From Cylindrospermum stagnale PCC 7417 (GTDB lineage: Bacteria > Cyanobacteriota > Cyanobacteriia > Cyanobacteriales > Nostocaceae), in assembly GCF_000317535.1 (NCBI RefSeq), contig NC_019757.1, positions 1,277,001 through 1,341,000 of the forward strand: 64,000 bases of DNA. Reading direction: 5' to 3'. The notes beneath the pieces are model-generated. The model did no database searches. It worked only from the letters and a program-made list of their open reading frames with translations, and was not told where the DNA came from. Of this stretch, positions 3,871 through 25,274 are shown piece after piece. Made by a program: the position numbers and the translations under genes. Position 1 is the first letter of the stretch, and each line of letters opens with the position of its first letter.

Positions 3871-5922
3871 ATGGGCAAGGTAGTCGGCATCGACTTGGGT
3901 ACAACCAACTCAGTAGTCGCCGTGATGGAGGGTGGCAAGCCGGTGGTGATCGCCAATGCCGAAGGAATGCGAACAACCCCCTCAGTCGTTGGCTTCAGCA
4001 AAGAAGGCGAAAGGGTAGTTGGGCAAATGGCACGACGGCAAACCGTCCTGAATCCTCAAAATACTTTTTTTTCAGTCAAACGCTTTATTGGGCGGAAGTA
4101 TGGCGAACTTAGTCCAGATTCTAAGCGTGTACCCTACACTATCCGCAAAGACGAAGTGGGGAATATTCGAGTTGCCTGTCCCCGTCTCAATAAGGAATTC
4201 GCCCCAGAAGAAATTTCGGCTATGGTTCTCAAGAAATTGGCAGACGATGCCAGTCGTTACTTGGGTGTACCAGTGACGGGGGCAGTGATTACTGTTCCTG
4301 CTTATTTTAATGATTCTCAGCGGCAAGCAACGCGGGATGCGGGGCGAATTGCTGGGTTGGAGGTGTTGCGGATTCTGAATGAACCGACTGCGGCATCTTT
4401 GGCTTATGGTTTGGATCGGGGTGATACGGAAACGATTTTAGTATTTGATTTGGGCGGTGGCACTTTTGATGTGTCGATTCTGGAGGTGGGTGATGGGGTG
4501 TTTGAGGTTAAAGCCACCAGTGGAGATACGCAGCTTGGTGGTAATGATTTTGATAAAAAAATAGTGGATTGGTTGGCAGAGCAATTTCTAGAAGCGGAAG
4601 CTGTAGACTTAAGACGCGATCGCCAAGCTTTACAACGTCTAATGGAAGCGGCAGAAAAAGCCAAAATAGAACTTTCTGCTGTCAGCGTCACCGATATTAA
4701 CTTACCTTTTATCACCGCCACTGAAGATGGCCCCAAGCATTTAGAAACTCGTTTGACGCGATCGCAGTTTGAGGGTTTGTGCGGTGACTTGGTAGGGCGG
4801 TTGCGGACTCCAGTCAAAAGGGCACTGAAAGATGCTGGTCTTTCACCCGCAGATATTGAAGAAGTTGTCCTAGTTGGTGGTTCCACCCGCATGCCAATGG
4901 TCAAGCAGCTAGTGCGAGACTTGATTGGCACAGAACCCAACGAAAACGTCAACCCCGATGAAGTGGTAGCCGTGGGTGCAGCGATTCAGGCAGGTATTCT
5001 CGCTGGTGAACTCAAGGATGTGCTGCTTTTGGATGTCACGCCCCTATCTTTGGGATTGGAAACCATCGGCGGCGTCATGAAAAAACTGATTCCTCGCAAC
5101 ACAACCATACCAGTACGCCGTTCTGATATTTTTTCTACGTCGGAAAATAACCAAAACACTGTGGAAATCCACGTAGTCCAGGGCGAACGGGAAATGGCAG
5201 CAAATAACAAGTCATTAGGACGTTTCAAGCTGTATGGTATTCCGCCAGCGCCACGGGGTATCCCCCAAGTCCAAGTATCATTTGATATCGATGCCAATGG
5301 AATTTTACAGGTTACAGCCCTAGATCGCACCACTGGACGAGAGCAAACCATCACAATTCAAGGCGCGTCTACCTTGAGTGAGTCGGAAGTGAATCGGATG
5401 ATTCAGGATGCCCAGAAATTCGCCGACGTTGACCGGGAACGGAAAGAACGGGTAGAAAAGCGCACTCGTGCTGAGGCGATGATTTTACAAGCAGAACGAC
5501 AACTCAGAGAAGTAGCGCTGGAAATGGGGATGCAGTTCGCCCGTAACCGCCGCCAAAGGATTGATAATATTTGCCGAGAACTGCGTGAGAGTTTACAGCA
5601 AAATGACGATCGCGGGATTGACCAAGCTTACGCTGACCTGCAAGATGCTCTGTATGAGCTAAACCGGGAAGTCCGCGAGTATTATGCTGAGGATGAAGAA
5701 GAAGATTTGTTTGGAACTATCCGGGAAATCTTTACTGGTGACAAAGAACGGGAACGGGATCTACCAAGAGATACATATCGAGAACGGGATGCCTACAGCA
5801 AGGATTATGGTAACAAGGACTATAGCAGGGACAGTCGTTCCTCCTCCTATGACAGCCGTCCTGCACGCAAACCCCGTCCCAGCTACCAAGATAACTGGGA
5901 TGATGACGACGATTGGTTGTAG
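3871..5922 (+). CDS. dnaK: Molecular chaperone DnaK (Hsp70), DnaK1 type
   Basis: A 683-residue Hsp70 that binds unfolded proteins in an ATP-driven cycle with DnaJ and GrpE. ATPase signatures are complete: [13 protein letters not shown] at the N-terminus, [14 protein letters not shown] near residue 190, and [13 protein letters not shown] near 330. The substrate-binding domain and helical lid follow. The C-terminus is unusual for Hsp70 generally: an Arg/Tyr/Ser/Asp-rich tail ending DDDDDWL in place of EEVD. I recall this acidic tail from cyanobacterial DnaK1. The start [19 protein letters not shown] also fits DnaK1 better than DnaK2. A J-domain gene lies 130 bp downstream in the same direction, which suggests a dnaK-dnaJ operon. 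Confidence 0.95.
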
Positions 5923-21647: not shown

Positions 21648-21680
21648 CGGTAGAGGATTTCGGTTCTCTACCGTTTTTTT
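21648..21680 (+). terminator. Rho-independent terminator after clpC
   Basis: Perfect 8-bp stem CGGTAGAG / CTCTACCG with a 10-base loop, followed directly by a run of seven T. It lies 26 bases past the clpC stop codon. Confidence 0.9.
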
Positions 21681-21725
21681 GTCTCACGCAGAGGCGCAGA
21701 GGCGCAGAGAGGAGGAGTAGAGGTC

Positions 21726-21902
21726 ATTCCTACACCAGAGCAAAAAACACAGTTATTTATCCTGTCCTGTTGGCTAACTAAACTATATTTACCTATAAAC
21801 CTGGTTCGAGTTGATAAACGCACAGGTAATGTGTTTATCCTCGCGGGTGAAGAGAATATGATAGAAATATATCCTAATGGTAAATGGAGGTATGTGGTAT
21901 GA
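21726..21902 (+). CDS. Small protein resembling DUF6888, apparent ATT start
   Basis: 58 residues: IPTPEQKTQLFILSCWLTKL, then PINLVRVDKRTGNVFILAGE and IEIYPNGKWRYVV. This resembles a small cyanobacterial family I recall as DUF6888, usually found directly before a DUF6887-like gene, as here. The frame has no ATG, GTG or TTG. An ATT occupies the expected start, preceded at good distance by GGAGGAG. The end overlaps the next gene by 4 bases (ATGA), supporting real coding. Either ATT is used, or the start has been lost through spread of the CGCAGAGG repeat just upstream. A toxin-antitoxin-like role is only a guess from the pairing. Confidence 0.55.
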   Translation: MPTPEQKTQLFILSCWLTKLYLPINLVRVDKRTGNVFILAGEENMIEIYPNGKWRYVV

Positions 21903-22123
21903 GTCAGCCTAACTTCCAAGGTATGAGTACAAAAGAATTACGTGCTTATGTTTTATCTCATCGGGATGACCAAGAGGCATTTTACACTTATGTAGATAAA
22001 TTGAAGGCTGAGGCAAATTGGGTAGAAATGCCACCATCAGAATCTGTTGATGATTTGAAGAATTATCCTGAATTTTTGCAGAGTCTTAGTAATGGTAAAA
22101 AATTACTTGAAAGTGAAGAATAA
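21899..22123 (+). CDS. Small protein resembling DUF6887
   Basis: A 74-residue protein beginning MSQPNFQGMSTKELRAYVLS, followed by HRDDQEAFYTYVDKL and NYPEFLQSL. It matches my memory of the cyanobacterial DUF6887 family, partner of DUF6888. ATG 21899 is chosen: GGAG lies just upstream and the codon overlaps the stop of the preceding gene. It is acidic and probably helical. The function is unknown; a paired regulatory or antitoxin-like role is inferred from the coupled gene order. Confidence 0.65.
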   Translation: MSQPNFQGMSTKELRAYVLSHRDDQEAFYTYVDKLKAEANWVEMPPSESVDDLKNYPEFLQSLSNGKKLLESEE

Positions 22124-22135
22124 GGGGGGTTAATT

Positions 22136-22453
22136 ATGACTAATACAAAACCTGTGCGTCGTCGTCAACTAGGGAGAATCTTTCCAGAATTTACAATACC
22201 ACCCGAAGAATTAGCTAGACGGGAAGCTGAAAAAAATGCTCGTGGACAAAAAGCACGTGTTATTTTTGATCAAGTTTGTCCGCAATTAATAGATGAACAT
22301 TACAATTGGTTTATTGTGATTGAACCAAACGGTGGTGACTATTTTATTGATCCTGATGAAAATGCTGCTGACAAAAAAGCGCGTGAAAAATATCCTACTG
22401 GTTGGCTTGTTACATTCCGTCTCAATGAAACAGGTGCTTGTGGACGGATATGA
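22136..22453 (+). CDS. Hypothetical small protein with an IDxxxGDYxID-like core
   Basis: A 105-residue protein with a basic N-terminus (TNTKPVRRRQLGRIFPEF), a charged helix, and a C-terminal core WFIVIEPNGGDYFIDPDENA then GWLVTFRLNETGACGRI. The core has the same order as the first protein of the pair at 25766 (MVIIDIETGEYAVDKI, then YGIRIGYKFA). That suggests the class of small cyanobacterial proteins that accompany retropepsin-like proteases. It starts 12 bases after the DUF6887-like gene with a GGGGG-containing ribosome site. No protease follows here; the next genes are convergent. No function is assigned. Confidence 0.6.
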   Translation: MTNTKPVRRRQLGRIFPEFTIPPEELARREAEKNARGQKARVIFDQVCPQLIDEHYNWFIVIEPNGGDYFIDPDENAADKKAREKYPTGWLVTFRLNETGACGRI

Positions 22454-22465
22454 TTTTTAATATTT

Positions 22466-23344
22466 TTAGTTTAGGTGATTGCCTATTTCTTGAATAAACC
22501 AATTCATTGTATACTTTATTTTTTGATAATCTTGTTGTTCAAAAAAAGCTTTAAGTTCATTGAGAGGCTGATCATTATCTAGATCATATTCAAAATTACC
22601 TAACCTATGTCTCAATATTGAATAATTAGTTGAAATATAGTTGATAACCAGTTGACTATTAAAGTAGGTATCTTTTAAGTTAAACAGTTGAATATATGCA
22701 TATCCCTCTTCAAGTCTGCCGCGAATGCTCACTCCGTTTTTATAAAGTACAAATTCAGAGAAGATACCTTGTATTTCTTCTTTAGAAATATTATTTTTTA
22801 GTTTTTGCAGTTTTATTTTTATAGATTTACCTTTAAGATCGACCCTTTCTGCTAGTGATTTACCATTATAATCTGTATGACTTGCAATATCCCTGATATC
22901 CATAATATGGGTAATCGTTTTATATTCTTTATCTTTATATTTAGATTTTTTAAAATTTTCTTCCCCACCCCTTACAAGGTAAAAAAAATCTTGTAACCTC
23001 CGTATTTTTGTATAATTGTTATCTTGAATATTGTTATAACCATATTTTTGTATTATAAATGTATTAACCAAAATTTCTATTTGCAGATATATTTTTCGGC
23101 AATATTCTACAAAATTATTATTCATAATATCATTCAATGATTGTTGATTATATTCTTCAAGTATTTTTTTGAGTTCCTCATTTTCTAATATATTTAGCCA
23201 TTCATAAATTGAATAATCAATCAACTGTATTTTATTAGAATCTAGTTTAATTTCTTCCCTGGATAATTTTTCTATATATAGAGAAATACTTTGCAAATTA
23301 AAATTTATTTGTTCTAGTATTTTTTGCTGTACTGTATCCATCAA
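22466..23344 (-). CDS. Retron-associated protein with HEPN-like RxxxxH motif
   Basis: A 292-residue, strongly helical, Lys/Asn/Ile-rich protein encoded directly after the retron reverse transcriptase; the stop of one abuts the start of the other. No family was recognised with certainty. A segment IMDIRDIASHTDYNG contains Arg151-x4-His156, the catalytic pattern of HEPN ribonucleases, set between predicted helices as in HEPN domains. Retrons are anti-phage modules in which a reverse transcriptase with its RNA-DNA hybrid restrains a toxic effector. Position therefore suggests this is the effector, acting on RNA if the HEPN reading is right. It is markedly AT-rich compared with core genes, consistent with transfer. 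A different helical effector cannot be excluded. Confidence 0.55.
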   Translation of the reverse strand: MMDTVQQKILEQINFNLQSISLYIEKLSREEIKLDSNKIQLIDYSIYEWLNILENEELKKILEEYNQQSLNDIMNNNFVEYCRKIYLQIEILVNTFIIQKYGYNNIQDNNYTKIRRLQDFFYLVRGGEENFKKSKYKDKEYKTITHIMDIRDIASHTDYNGKSLAERVDLKGKSIKIKLQKLKNNISKEEIQGIFSEFVLYKNGVSIRGRLEEGYAYIQLFNLKDTYFNSQLVINYISTNYSILRHRLGNFEYDLDNDQPLNELKAFFEQQDYQKIKYTMNWFIQEIGNHLN

Positions 23345-24433
23345 TTAATCCTCGCGTATTTTGTTACTAATTGATAATTTTGTTAATATTTTATATTGGT
23401 TACTATATTTTTGATAAATAAAATCATTTTTTCCTTTAACAATACCTATAAACTCTATTTTTCCCCTCAATATCTGCTGAAATTTGAGGTCTTTTTTTAT
23501 AGGTAATCTTGATTTAAATAAATATTTCTCAAAATATTCATTTTCCGCAGCCTCAAGCCCAAATTTAGCCCAAGCATAAAGCATAGCGCGAACTTGACGC
23601 ACATATTTTCGGTCAACATTAGGAAAAAGATTAGTTGTTAATCCTGTTACTTCCTGATGGTTTCCTTTTACTTGCAGTCTATTTTTTTGCTGATTTACTT
23701 CAAATCCGTTCTCATTAATGACTGCTGTTAACCGATTACCAATAACAATTTTTTTGCATTCTTCTTCAGCTACAATATATGCTAACTCTTCTGGAAATTT
23801 AGGTAAAGTTGTTGAAAAAGTCATATCATCAGCATATCTTGTATAAGTAGCTTTACAATCTTTAGCCAATCTTTGCAATTGACTATCCATCTTGGCACAA
23901 ATCATATTAGTAATTATTGGTGAAGTTGGTGCGCCTTGAGGTAACTGATTGTTATGACAACAAATTTGTGCTAAAACTGTGGCTACGTCTGGATGTAAAT
24001 TATAGGGTTTAGCCATAAACATACCCCGCACCCGACCGAAATTAACAGAAGGGAAAAAATCTTTGATATCAAGATTGAGAACATAGCGTTTTTTAGCATG
24101 AGCTTGAGCATTGCTAACAATATTTTTACCACTCACAAAACCATGTACTGATGGCTTTGTTTGATATACAGCTTGTAAAACTTGATTAAGTTTTCTTTGA
24201 ATAAGTTTGAGAGCCGTTATGGGAGTTGATATTTGACGAATACCACCAGATTTTTTTGGTATGTCAAAAGTTTTATAACGCTTTTCAGGTTCAACAAGAT
24301 ATATGTGATAAACAAGACGACGATAGGAAATCCCTAAAAGGTGGGCTATATCTATTGGTTTTGTGAGAGAGTAAAATCTCTCCCGCAAAGTTTCGGGACT
24401 ATCTGTGAGAATTAAATGGGAGTCTTTTTGCAC
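23345..24433 (-). CDS. Retron-type reverse transcriptase
   Basis: A 362-residue reverse transcriptase. Motifs in order: basic RT1 region (IPKKSGGIRQISTP), the retron-specific NAxxH motif (NAQAH, 108-112), catalytic Asp in VLNLDIKDFFPSV (Asp122), QGAPTSPIITN (166-176), YTRYADDMTF with the YADD box (200-203), and the VTG motif (262-264) that marks the retron Y region. No maturase or endonuclease domain is present, so this is not a group II intron protein. The start is GTG 24433 with GGAGAAA before it. A candidate msr-msd RNA with a 14-bp terminal stem lies just upstream, and a putative effector follows. The enzyme is expected to make branched multicopy single-stranded DNA. Confidence 0.88.
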   Translation of the reverse strand: MQKDSHLILTDSPETLRERFYSLTKPIDIAHLLGISYRRLVYHIYLVEPEKRYKTFDIPKKSGGIRQISTPITALKLIQRKLNQVLQAVYQTKPSVHGFVSGKNIVSNAQAHAKKRYVLNLDIKDFFPSVNFGRVRGMFMAKPYNLHPDVATVLAQICCHNNQLPQGAPTSPIITNMICAKMDSQLQRLAKDCKATYTRYADDMTFSTTLPKFPEELAYIVAEEECKKIVIGNRLTAVINENGFEVNQQKNRLQVKGNHQEVTGLTTNLFPNVDRKYVRQVRAMLYAWAKFGLEAAENEYFEKYLFKSRLPIKKDLKFQQILRGKIEFIGIVKGKNDFIYQKYSNQYKILTKLSISNKIRED

Positions 24434-24461
24434 TTTCTCCGTAATGGATAATTAAGAAAAA

Positions 24462-24601
24462 ATATCACTCGCGGGTGTATTCTCGCTTACTCGGAAAAGG
24501 AAAAGCAATTAAACGCGCTAGGCGCGTCGTTAAAACTAACCGTCAAATACACCGTCGCAGGATCAACAACGGAAATCAATACTTATTCCCGCAAGTGATA
24601 T
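24462..24601 (-). ncRNA. Candidate retron msr-msd RNA
   Basis: On the RT strand, 28 bases before the RT start codon, the segment begins ATATCACTTGCGGG and ends CCCGCGAGTGATAT. These pair over 14 bp with one G-U, as expected of the retron a1/a2 stem. Next to a2 lies a 6-bp stem closing positions 24476-24551 (TGTATT with AATACA), a plausible msd. It encloses a hairpin CGCGC-CTA-GCGCG (24514-24526). Between a1 and msd lies a hairpin CCGTTG / CGACGG (24552-24572), a plausible msr stem. The order a1-msr-msd-a2 and the location match known retrons. The branching guanosine was not identified. Confidence 0.7.
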
Positions 24602-24710
24602 AGGTGGCTTGTCTCAGGAATCATCGATAATTGATGATTTAGATTTACCAGTAAACTACTTTACAGACTAACAAACTCAAAGTATACCGTAAAAATGCTG
24701 AGATTTAGGG

Positions 24711-24747
24711 TAGATTAGGTTGAGCGAGAGCGAAACCCAATCTTACA
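24711..24747. repeat. Dispersed AGGTTG...AACCCAAT palindromic repeat
   Basis: An imperfect inverted repeat (GATTAGGTTGAGCG and its inverse AAACCCAATC). It is one member of a family also seen at 25468-25670 and, as a half-copy, near 11005-11020. It marks the edge between the retron and the toxin-antitoxin-like pair. Confidence 0.55.
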
Positions 24748-24799
24748 TATAGCTAAAATGTTAGATAGATGAGATAAGCAATAACAGGTATTTCTAGTT

Positions 24800-25006
24800 A
24801 TGTCTTTCAGTGATGTAGTTGAAGCAATCAAAAGCCTTTCCACGGAAGAGAAACAACAAATTCAACTGCTATTGCAGCAGTATCTCCGAGAAGAACGCCG
24901 TGAAGAGATATATGAAAACTTTCAAGCGGCGAAAGTAGAACAACAAAAAGGTGAACTCAAGTTTTCTTCCAATATTGATGAACTGAAACAAATGATAGAA
25001 GAGTGA
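24800..25006 (+). CDS. Small antitoxin-like protein
   Basis: 68 residues, entirely helical and charged: MSFSDVVEAIKSLSTEEKQQ, then a Gln/Glu/Arg-rich helix and the end SSNIDELKQMIEE. It is located directly before a RelE/YafQ-like toxin frame, with its TGA overlapping the toxin ATG (TGATG), the classic order of an antitoxin. This type of short cyanobacterial antitoxin has no standard name that I can give. Its toxin partner is frameshifted. Confidence 0.7.
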   Translation: MSFSDVVEAIKSLSTEEKQQIQLLLQQYLREERREEIYENFQAAKVEQQKGELKFSSNIDELKQMIEE

Positions 25007-25274
25007 TGGTAGAAGTAAGTTTCAGTTCATCATTCAAACGTGCTTTTAAAAAGTGATTCAAGTAAATGTAGATTTAGAAGCGCGGTTTTGGCAAAAATTA
25101 GAGCAGTTTACAGCAGATCCTTTTGAGAAGAGTTTGAGAACTCACAAACTGTCAGGGAAACTTAAAGATTTTTGGAGTTTCAGCATTGATTATGATGCGA
25201 GGGTGCTGTTTTACTTCACTGATAATGTAAATGCTGTCTTTGTAGATATTGGCAGCCATGATGAAGTTTATTAG
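25006..25274 (+). pseudogene. RelE/YafQ-type toxin with a frameshift in an A tract
   Basis: The ATG at 25006 starts MVEVSFSSSFKRAFKK and meets TGA at 25054. The rest of the toxin continues in the next frame from 25053: IQVNVDLEARFWQKLEQFT, THKLSGKLKDFWSFSIDYDA and VFVDIGSHDEVY, a RelE/YafQ-type mRNA interferase ending. Adding one A to the AAAAA tract at 25048-25052 would fuse both parts. The break may be a true inactivating mutation, slippage-based phase variation, or a sequencing error. It is coupled to the upstream antitoxin-like gene. Confidence 0.7.

Follow-up and report, generated by a model that had tools for sequence, protein, structure and literature searches.

The 64,000-nucleotide stretch of Cylindrospermum stagnale PCC 7417 analyzed here (contig NC_019757.1, positions 1,277,001 to 1,341,000; hereafter the window) carried on its minus strand, between positions 22466 and 24602, a retron non-coding RNA (ncRNA) followed, in RNA order, by a reverse transcriptase (RT) gene and a separate partner gene (Table 1). 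Retrons are bacterial immune elements producing a small hybrid of DNA and RNA. The RT was of the retron type, a conserved and paired msr-msd RNA lay upstream of it, the partner started a few bases after the RT stop, and its R-x4-H motif was retained. Together, the two genes probably constitute a retron belonging to the Ec67-like branch, in which a free-standing HEPN ribonuclease (RNase) would serve as effector and be restrained by the RT and its multicopy single-stranded DNA (msDNA) until phage infection. An earlier note, made from the sequence and its open reading frames (ORFs), had read the locus as a retron with a HEPN-like partner, and overall this reading was supported.

Reverse transcriptase

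The motifs reported in the RT by the earlier note were all located: NAQAH at residues 108-112, VTG at 262-264, and YADD (200-203). According to PMC6868368, retron RTs are marked by NAXXH (region X) and VTG (region Y), and the window RT carried both. The highest PADLOC scores were those of RT-Protease XI (452 bits), RT-Toprim I-C (435 bits) and RT-TIR XII (433 bits); the window RT, ending at 362 amino acids, covered just the first (RT) part of these fusion models, and no type IX RT model was among the 25 listed of its 61 PADLOC matches. For NCBIfam, the TIR retron (383 bits) and Ec67 (364 bits) families led, and group II introns scored 61 bits. Neither leading score reached the cut-off set for the whole protein, which is what an RT lacking the fused domain should show. 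Ec67 was the best match among PDB chains (212 bits), followed by Ec86 (113 bits) and Kva2 (92 bits). The three comparisons sided the protein with retron RTs, not with group II intron or other RTs; by sequence similarity it belongs to the Ec67-like branch (PADLOC XI, I-C and XII) and not to type IX. An alternative start is possible at an ATT (24445), where Richelia has an ATG.

In a sample of 388 genomes of the class, 30 contained relatives of the RT (E 1e-50 or better), at 31 places; wider DNA was read for 30 of these places, the window included. In a tree of 40 RTs, restricted to the retron type, with weakly resolved deep branches and several long reference rows, a branch with support 86/86 set apart the HEPN-type RTs (11 rows, genome G379 standing among them without a partner), and the RTs of the window, G270 (Richelia sinica), G379 and G029 grouped at 100/99. 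The HEPN-type grouping was the same in a 41-row tree (81/86). Both genes look selected as proteins, judging from dN/dS values against Richelia (NG86) of about 0.22 for the RT and about 0.37 for the partner.

Retron RNA

The candidate msr-msd RNA that the earlier note had placed immediately upstream of the RT was borne out by comparative folding. RNAalifold predicted, from an alignment of 12 copies, an a1/a2 stem, an inner stem beside the core and a hairpin: 22 pairs formed in 92.8% of cells over the 12 sequences, 9 of them changed on both sides (compensatory), and neither value was reached by any of 500 shuffles. Pairing fell to 31-61% when the partners were slid. One of the five measures, the number of further pair types, was not unusual, since 115 of the 500 shuffles were as high.

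Allowing up to 7 substitutions, the 26-base core with its hairpin stem was present at 20 of 30 RT places (29 plus the window); it occurred once in the 7.6-Mb genome carrying the window (up to 3 mismatches allowed). It was found at 11 of the 12 loci of the HEPN-type clade (window, G270, G379, G032, G427, G393, G263, G075, G119, PCC 7002 and G651), the remaining locus being that of G029, whose RT is missing its first part. The 12 aligned copies came from these 11 genomes. All 6 scored hairpin pairs formed in 14 of 15 loci from inside and outside this clade, changed pairs being kept. At the remaining 10 of the 30 places (L051-L056, L060 and L067-L069) no core was found, so the RNA may be more divergent in that part of the RT branch.

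As in retrons, an a1/a2 inverted repeat enclosed the msr-msd RNA upstream of the RT. A cross-control over 15 loci, the window among them, placed the locus' own a2 first in 11. Against shuffled downstream sequence, z values of the a1/a2 duplex ranged from -8.8 to +0.8 (window, -2.6), this control being weak because AT-rich stretches of 230 bases often pair; the 22-pair count with 500 shuffles is the better test. Rfam gave no match for 24380-24800 at E up to 1. Judged from its position, the first G of the msr core is the proposed priming (branch) guanosine, and the msd has putative limits.

Duplicated units were seen at related loci. Tandem ncRNA copies with differing msd parts (L047:4589-4614 and 4915-4940) lay upstream of a single RT, and in L048 and L049 a second a2-like unit (GAATAA...CAGCACC) followed the ncRNA, as though some of the msd had been duplicated.

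Partner protein

A separate gene encoding RDIASH directly after the RT, as the earlier note had described, was present, 3 bases lying between the RT stop and the partner ATG; the length of 292 amino acids given there was less likely than 291. The longer version starts at a TTG (22466-23344), and the next codon is an ATG (23341), which lines up with the start codon, also ATG, of the Richelia sinica homologue; the residues noted as R151 and H156 then become R150 and H155. No family was found for this protein in Pfam (E up to 5), PADLOC (up to 1) or NCBIfam (up to 0.1), its profile gave nothing meaningful in a sequence search of PDB chains, and tblastn gave no match in plasmids.

The motif of the HEPN superfamily is R-x4-6-H, and many HEPN proteins have N, D or H at its second position. 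All 10 partner proteins that were scanned, including a remnant tail (G225), contained R[NDH]x3H. The R and H singled out in the earlier note were both conserved, R-x4-H occurring in all 8 alignable homologues: window (RDIASH), Richelia sinica G270 (RDISSH), G029 (RDIVSH), G427 (RNIASH), G393 (RNIASH), G263 (RDATSH), G651 (RDAASH) and G623 (RNIASH). The shuffle probability of R[NDH]x3H was 0.015-0.079 per protein (8-46% for the looser R-x4-H), values not to be multiplied as independent, several of the proteins being related. The direct link between the G427 and window partners was weak (E 0.006-0.05). The G119 partner (RNKVCH) was also related, matching that of Richelia at E 2e-5 in a region that spans the motif, and the partners of G075 (RDPEHH) and PCC 7002 (RNHRSH) had place and motif in common with the others, at best E values of 0.10 and 0.53, respectively. 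The second residue of the motif was D or N, not hydrophobic as in the R-phi-XXX-H form (PMC13405049).

The HEPN-type effector suggested in the earlier note was upheld in part: the motif was kept and the best second-look (VIA) matches of the predicted partner structures were HEPN proteins, at modest scores, and Foldseek gave no match at E 0.001 or better for either partner model. A HEPN fold is likely from these models; other folds are also possible, the HEPN match coming from VIA and not from Foldseek. An RRM-like insert was predicted within the HEPN-like domain, at about residues 172-259 (292-residue numbering), where it follows the motif helix and precedes the final one.

Table 1. Positions and supporting evidence of the retron features in the window.
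Feature	Position	Strand	Evidence
Retron ncRNA (msr-msd)	24460..24602 (outer limits approximate)	-	12 aligned copies from 11 genomes; 22 pairs, 9 compensatory
a1 arm, ATATCACTTGCGGG	24588..24601	-	Complements a2, with one G-U pair
msr hairpin core, conserved	24552..24577	-	Present at 20 of 30 RT places with up to 7 substitutions; stem covaries
a2 arm, CCCGCGAGTGATAT	24462..24475	-	Complements a1
Retron reverse transcriptase, 362 amino acids, GTG start	23345..24433	-	Motifs, PADLOC, NCBIfam, PDB, tree
Partner protein, 291 amino acids, HEPN-like, RDIASH, RRM-like insert	22466..23341	-	Motif conservation, predicted structure

Related loci and third genes

A downstream partner with R[NDH]x3H accompanied the RT at eight places (window, G270, G427, G393, G263, G075, G119 and G029); G379 and G032 had an RT without such a partner, the RT being broken in G032. 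Another relative was located on plasmid pAQ5 of Picosynechococcus PCC 7002, a strain that is tractable in the laboratory. A third gene encoding a protein of about 690 amino acids was present at G427, G393, G263 and PCC 7002. In G427 and PCC 7002 (the latter below Pfam cut-offs) this protein carried an N-terminal AAA_33 P-loop kinase domain and a C-terminal WYL/WCX part, and the G427 protein shared 81% identity with its G393 counterpart and 52% with that of G263. The kinase part matched PSTK (60 bits) and Pnkp (46 bits) weakly, far below cut-off. The third gene of G075 encoded a 459-residue WYL/WCX protein (83% identical in G119), and that of G651 a protein of 809 residues with no family, whose G623 counterpart was 67% identical and ran off the contig.

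No third gene was found at the window, G270 or G029. According to the ORF list of the window, no clear one adjoined the RT and partner on their strand, since the clear genes past the partner (22136-22453 and 21884-22123) were oppositely oriented.

Ten related retron RT loci had no obvious downstream partner. A gene encoding a TPR protein lay upstream of the RT in 7 of 7 of them scanned (L050, L051, L054 and L056-L059), with variable N-terminal domains: CHAT (L054), SLFN_AlbA_2 (L057, L058 and L059) and a weak SIR2-like match (L056). These TPR-linked loci look like another group exchanging effectors. Unusually long RT proteins were encoded at L065 (757 amino acids) and L075 (Nostoc sp. HK-01 plasmid, about 753 amino acids); the L065 protein was a fusion of the RT with an AAA_5 domain, and the gene following it matched PDDEXK_7.

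Insertion site and neighbouring genes

The retron adjoined clpC in the window, G270 and G379, partner remnants lay beside clpC in G012 and G026, and RT and partner were both shortened in G029; the site thus seems old in the family and the element often lost. The RT-only state of G379 would be expected of a toxin-antitoxin-like pair losing its toxin first. In G225 (L061:2944-3768), an RT matching residues 9-163 only ran in frame into a HEPN-like tail (RNIIVH), a fusion which is likely a deletion remnant.

The gene at 21884-22123 was a small member of the DUF6887 family, convergent with the partner gene, and a small gene of this type also adjoined the remnant in L003 (by eye). An ORF of 83 amino acids was also present on the minus strand (21668-21919). 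On the plus strand, 5' of the retron, two small genes (24800-25006 and 25053-25274) resembled a toxin-antitoxin pair by eye.

Proposed function and alternatives

The RT would copy the msd into msDNA, primed from the conserved G beside a1, and the RT-msDNA complex would bind the HEPN partner and keep it inactive. The partner is probably dimeric, and its paired R-x4-H motifs would form the active site. A phage product binding or damaging the msDNA would free or remodel the complex, and the freed HEPN protein would cut RNA, perhaps tRNA, with arrest of growth of the infected cell. Conceivably, the RRM-like insert contributes to binding of the msr RNA or of the RNA target.

We advance more tentatively the idea of a separate retron type, whose uptake of a HEPN protein was independent of type IX. 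An Ec67-like RT and its RNA would hold a canonical-motif HEPN, split in the window lineage by an RRM-like domain reading the msr or target RNA; sister loci would carry interchangeable third genes, among them the kinase-WYL gene, whose product could act on RNA ends left by the HEPN protein, and related RNA-RT sensors would stand beside quite different effectors.

Two observations weigh against a nuclease partner: the modest structural scores, and the predicted insert with an RRM-like fold, which many nucleic-acid binders share. They would suit a retron in which the partner is a helical adaptor or a binder of msDNA or RNA, R-x4-H is structural and the toxic effector is encoded elsewhere. This is unlikely, however, given that R and H were retained in partners otherwise sharing little, and that no other clear gene lay beside the RT on its strand in the window. 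The partner was also considered as half of a HEPN/MNT pair, and this reading was discarded; no nucleotidyltransferase-like gene was seen in the adjoining ORFs, which were not searched with profiles.

AbiF is a HEPN protein. Going by the title of PMC12373285, the AbiF system is regulated by RNA, and piecemeal decay, as at the clpC site, can be shown by toxin-antitoxin pairs; the ncRNA, or the RT with the ncRNA but no reverse transcription, might similarly be an RNA antitoxin for a HEPN toxin. The RT, however, retained its catalytic and retron motifs, and the a1/a2 arms needed for retron priming covaried, which makes such an arrangement rather improbable. An ordinary type IX retron, where an RT is also paired with a HEPN RNase (PMC13405049), is very hard to reconcile with the RT scores for Ec67 and Kva2, the lack of an RT_IX model among the PADLOC matches listed, the absence of a winged-helix gene beside RT and partner in the window, and the canonical motif, which the type IX HEPNs are reported to lack (PMC13405049). 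A retron of the Ec67-like branch with a HEPN effector remains our preferred reading.

Comparison with known retrons

Kva2, of type IX, comprises an RT, a winged-helix protein and a HEPN protein, is triggered by a phage T5 protein and cleaves tRNA; the canonical motif is reported absent from its HEPN and from the other type IX HEPNs compared (PMC13405049). In Kva2 the RT and msDNA hold the HEPN RNase, and the window locus is predicted to resemble it in this respect. The window locus differs in its distant RT (one type IX RT was compared), in the lack of a winged-helix gene among the window ORFs next to RT and partner, and in the partner itself: the Kva2 HEPN is reported at about 19 kDa and without R-phi-XXX-H (PMC13405049), whereas the window protein has 291 amino acids and the canonical motif.

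Retron-Eco2 (Ec67), of type I-C, shares with the window the RT branch and an RNase effector, the latter predicted here; in Eco2 the RT carries a fused Toprim domain, which is an RNase kept under control (PMC12405507), in contrast to the separate HEPN-like protein of the window. The RT parts of PADLOC types XI (RT-protease) and XII (RT-TIR) matched the window RT, but these models are single-gene fusions and the window RT has no fused effector domain. In the structural second look, the partner models matched the HEPN proteins Csm6 and AF_0298 (6tug and 2hsb) best, from which the partner differs in having no Pfam domain and in carrying the RRM-like insert.

By every feature examined, all of them drawn from the sequence, the system looks like a retron, and it looks like neither type IX nor type I-C by those tested; the earlier note could match it to no described type with certainty. 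Going by titles and the openings of abstracts, with the main retron-type classification outside the comparison, no published description of such a system was found. If our reading is true, retrons recruited HEPN RNases on at least two occasions, and the one described here involved the canonical motif and a branch in which the known member, Eco2, relies on a Toprim RNase fused to its RT. Related cyanobacterial RTs, many with the same hairpin, adjoined HEPN-like, TPR-linked, fused and AAA-type effectors, and this RT group therefore lends itself naturally to testing how one retron sensor can be coupled to effectors that are exchanged. HEPN-armed retrons were already known; the present one differs from them in its RT branch and in keeping the canonical motif, which they are reported to lack.
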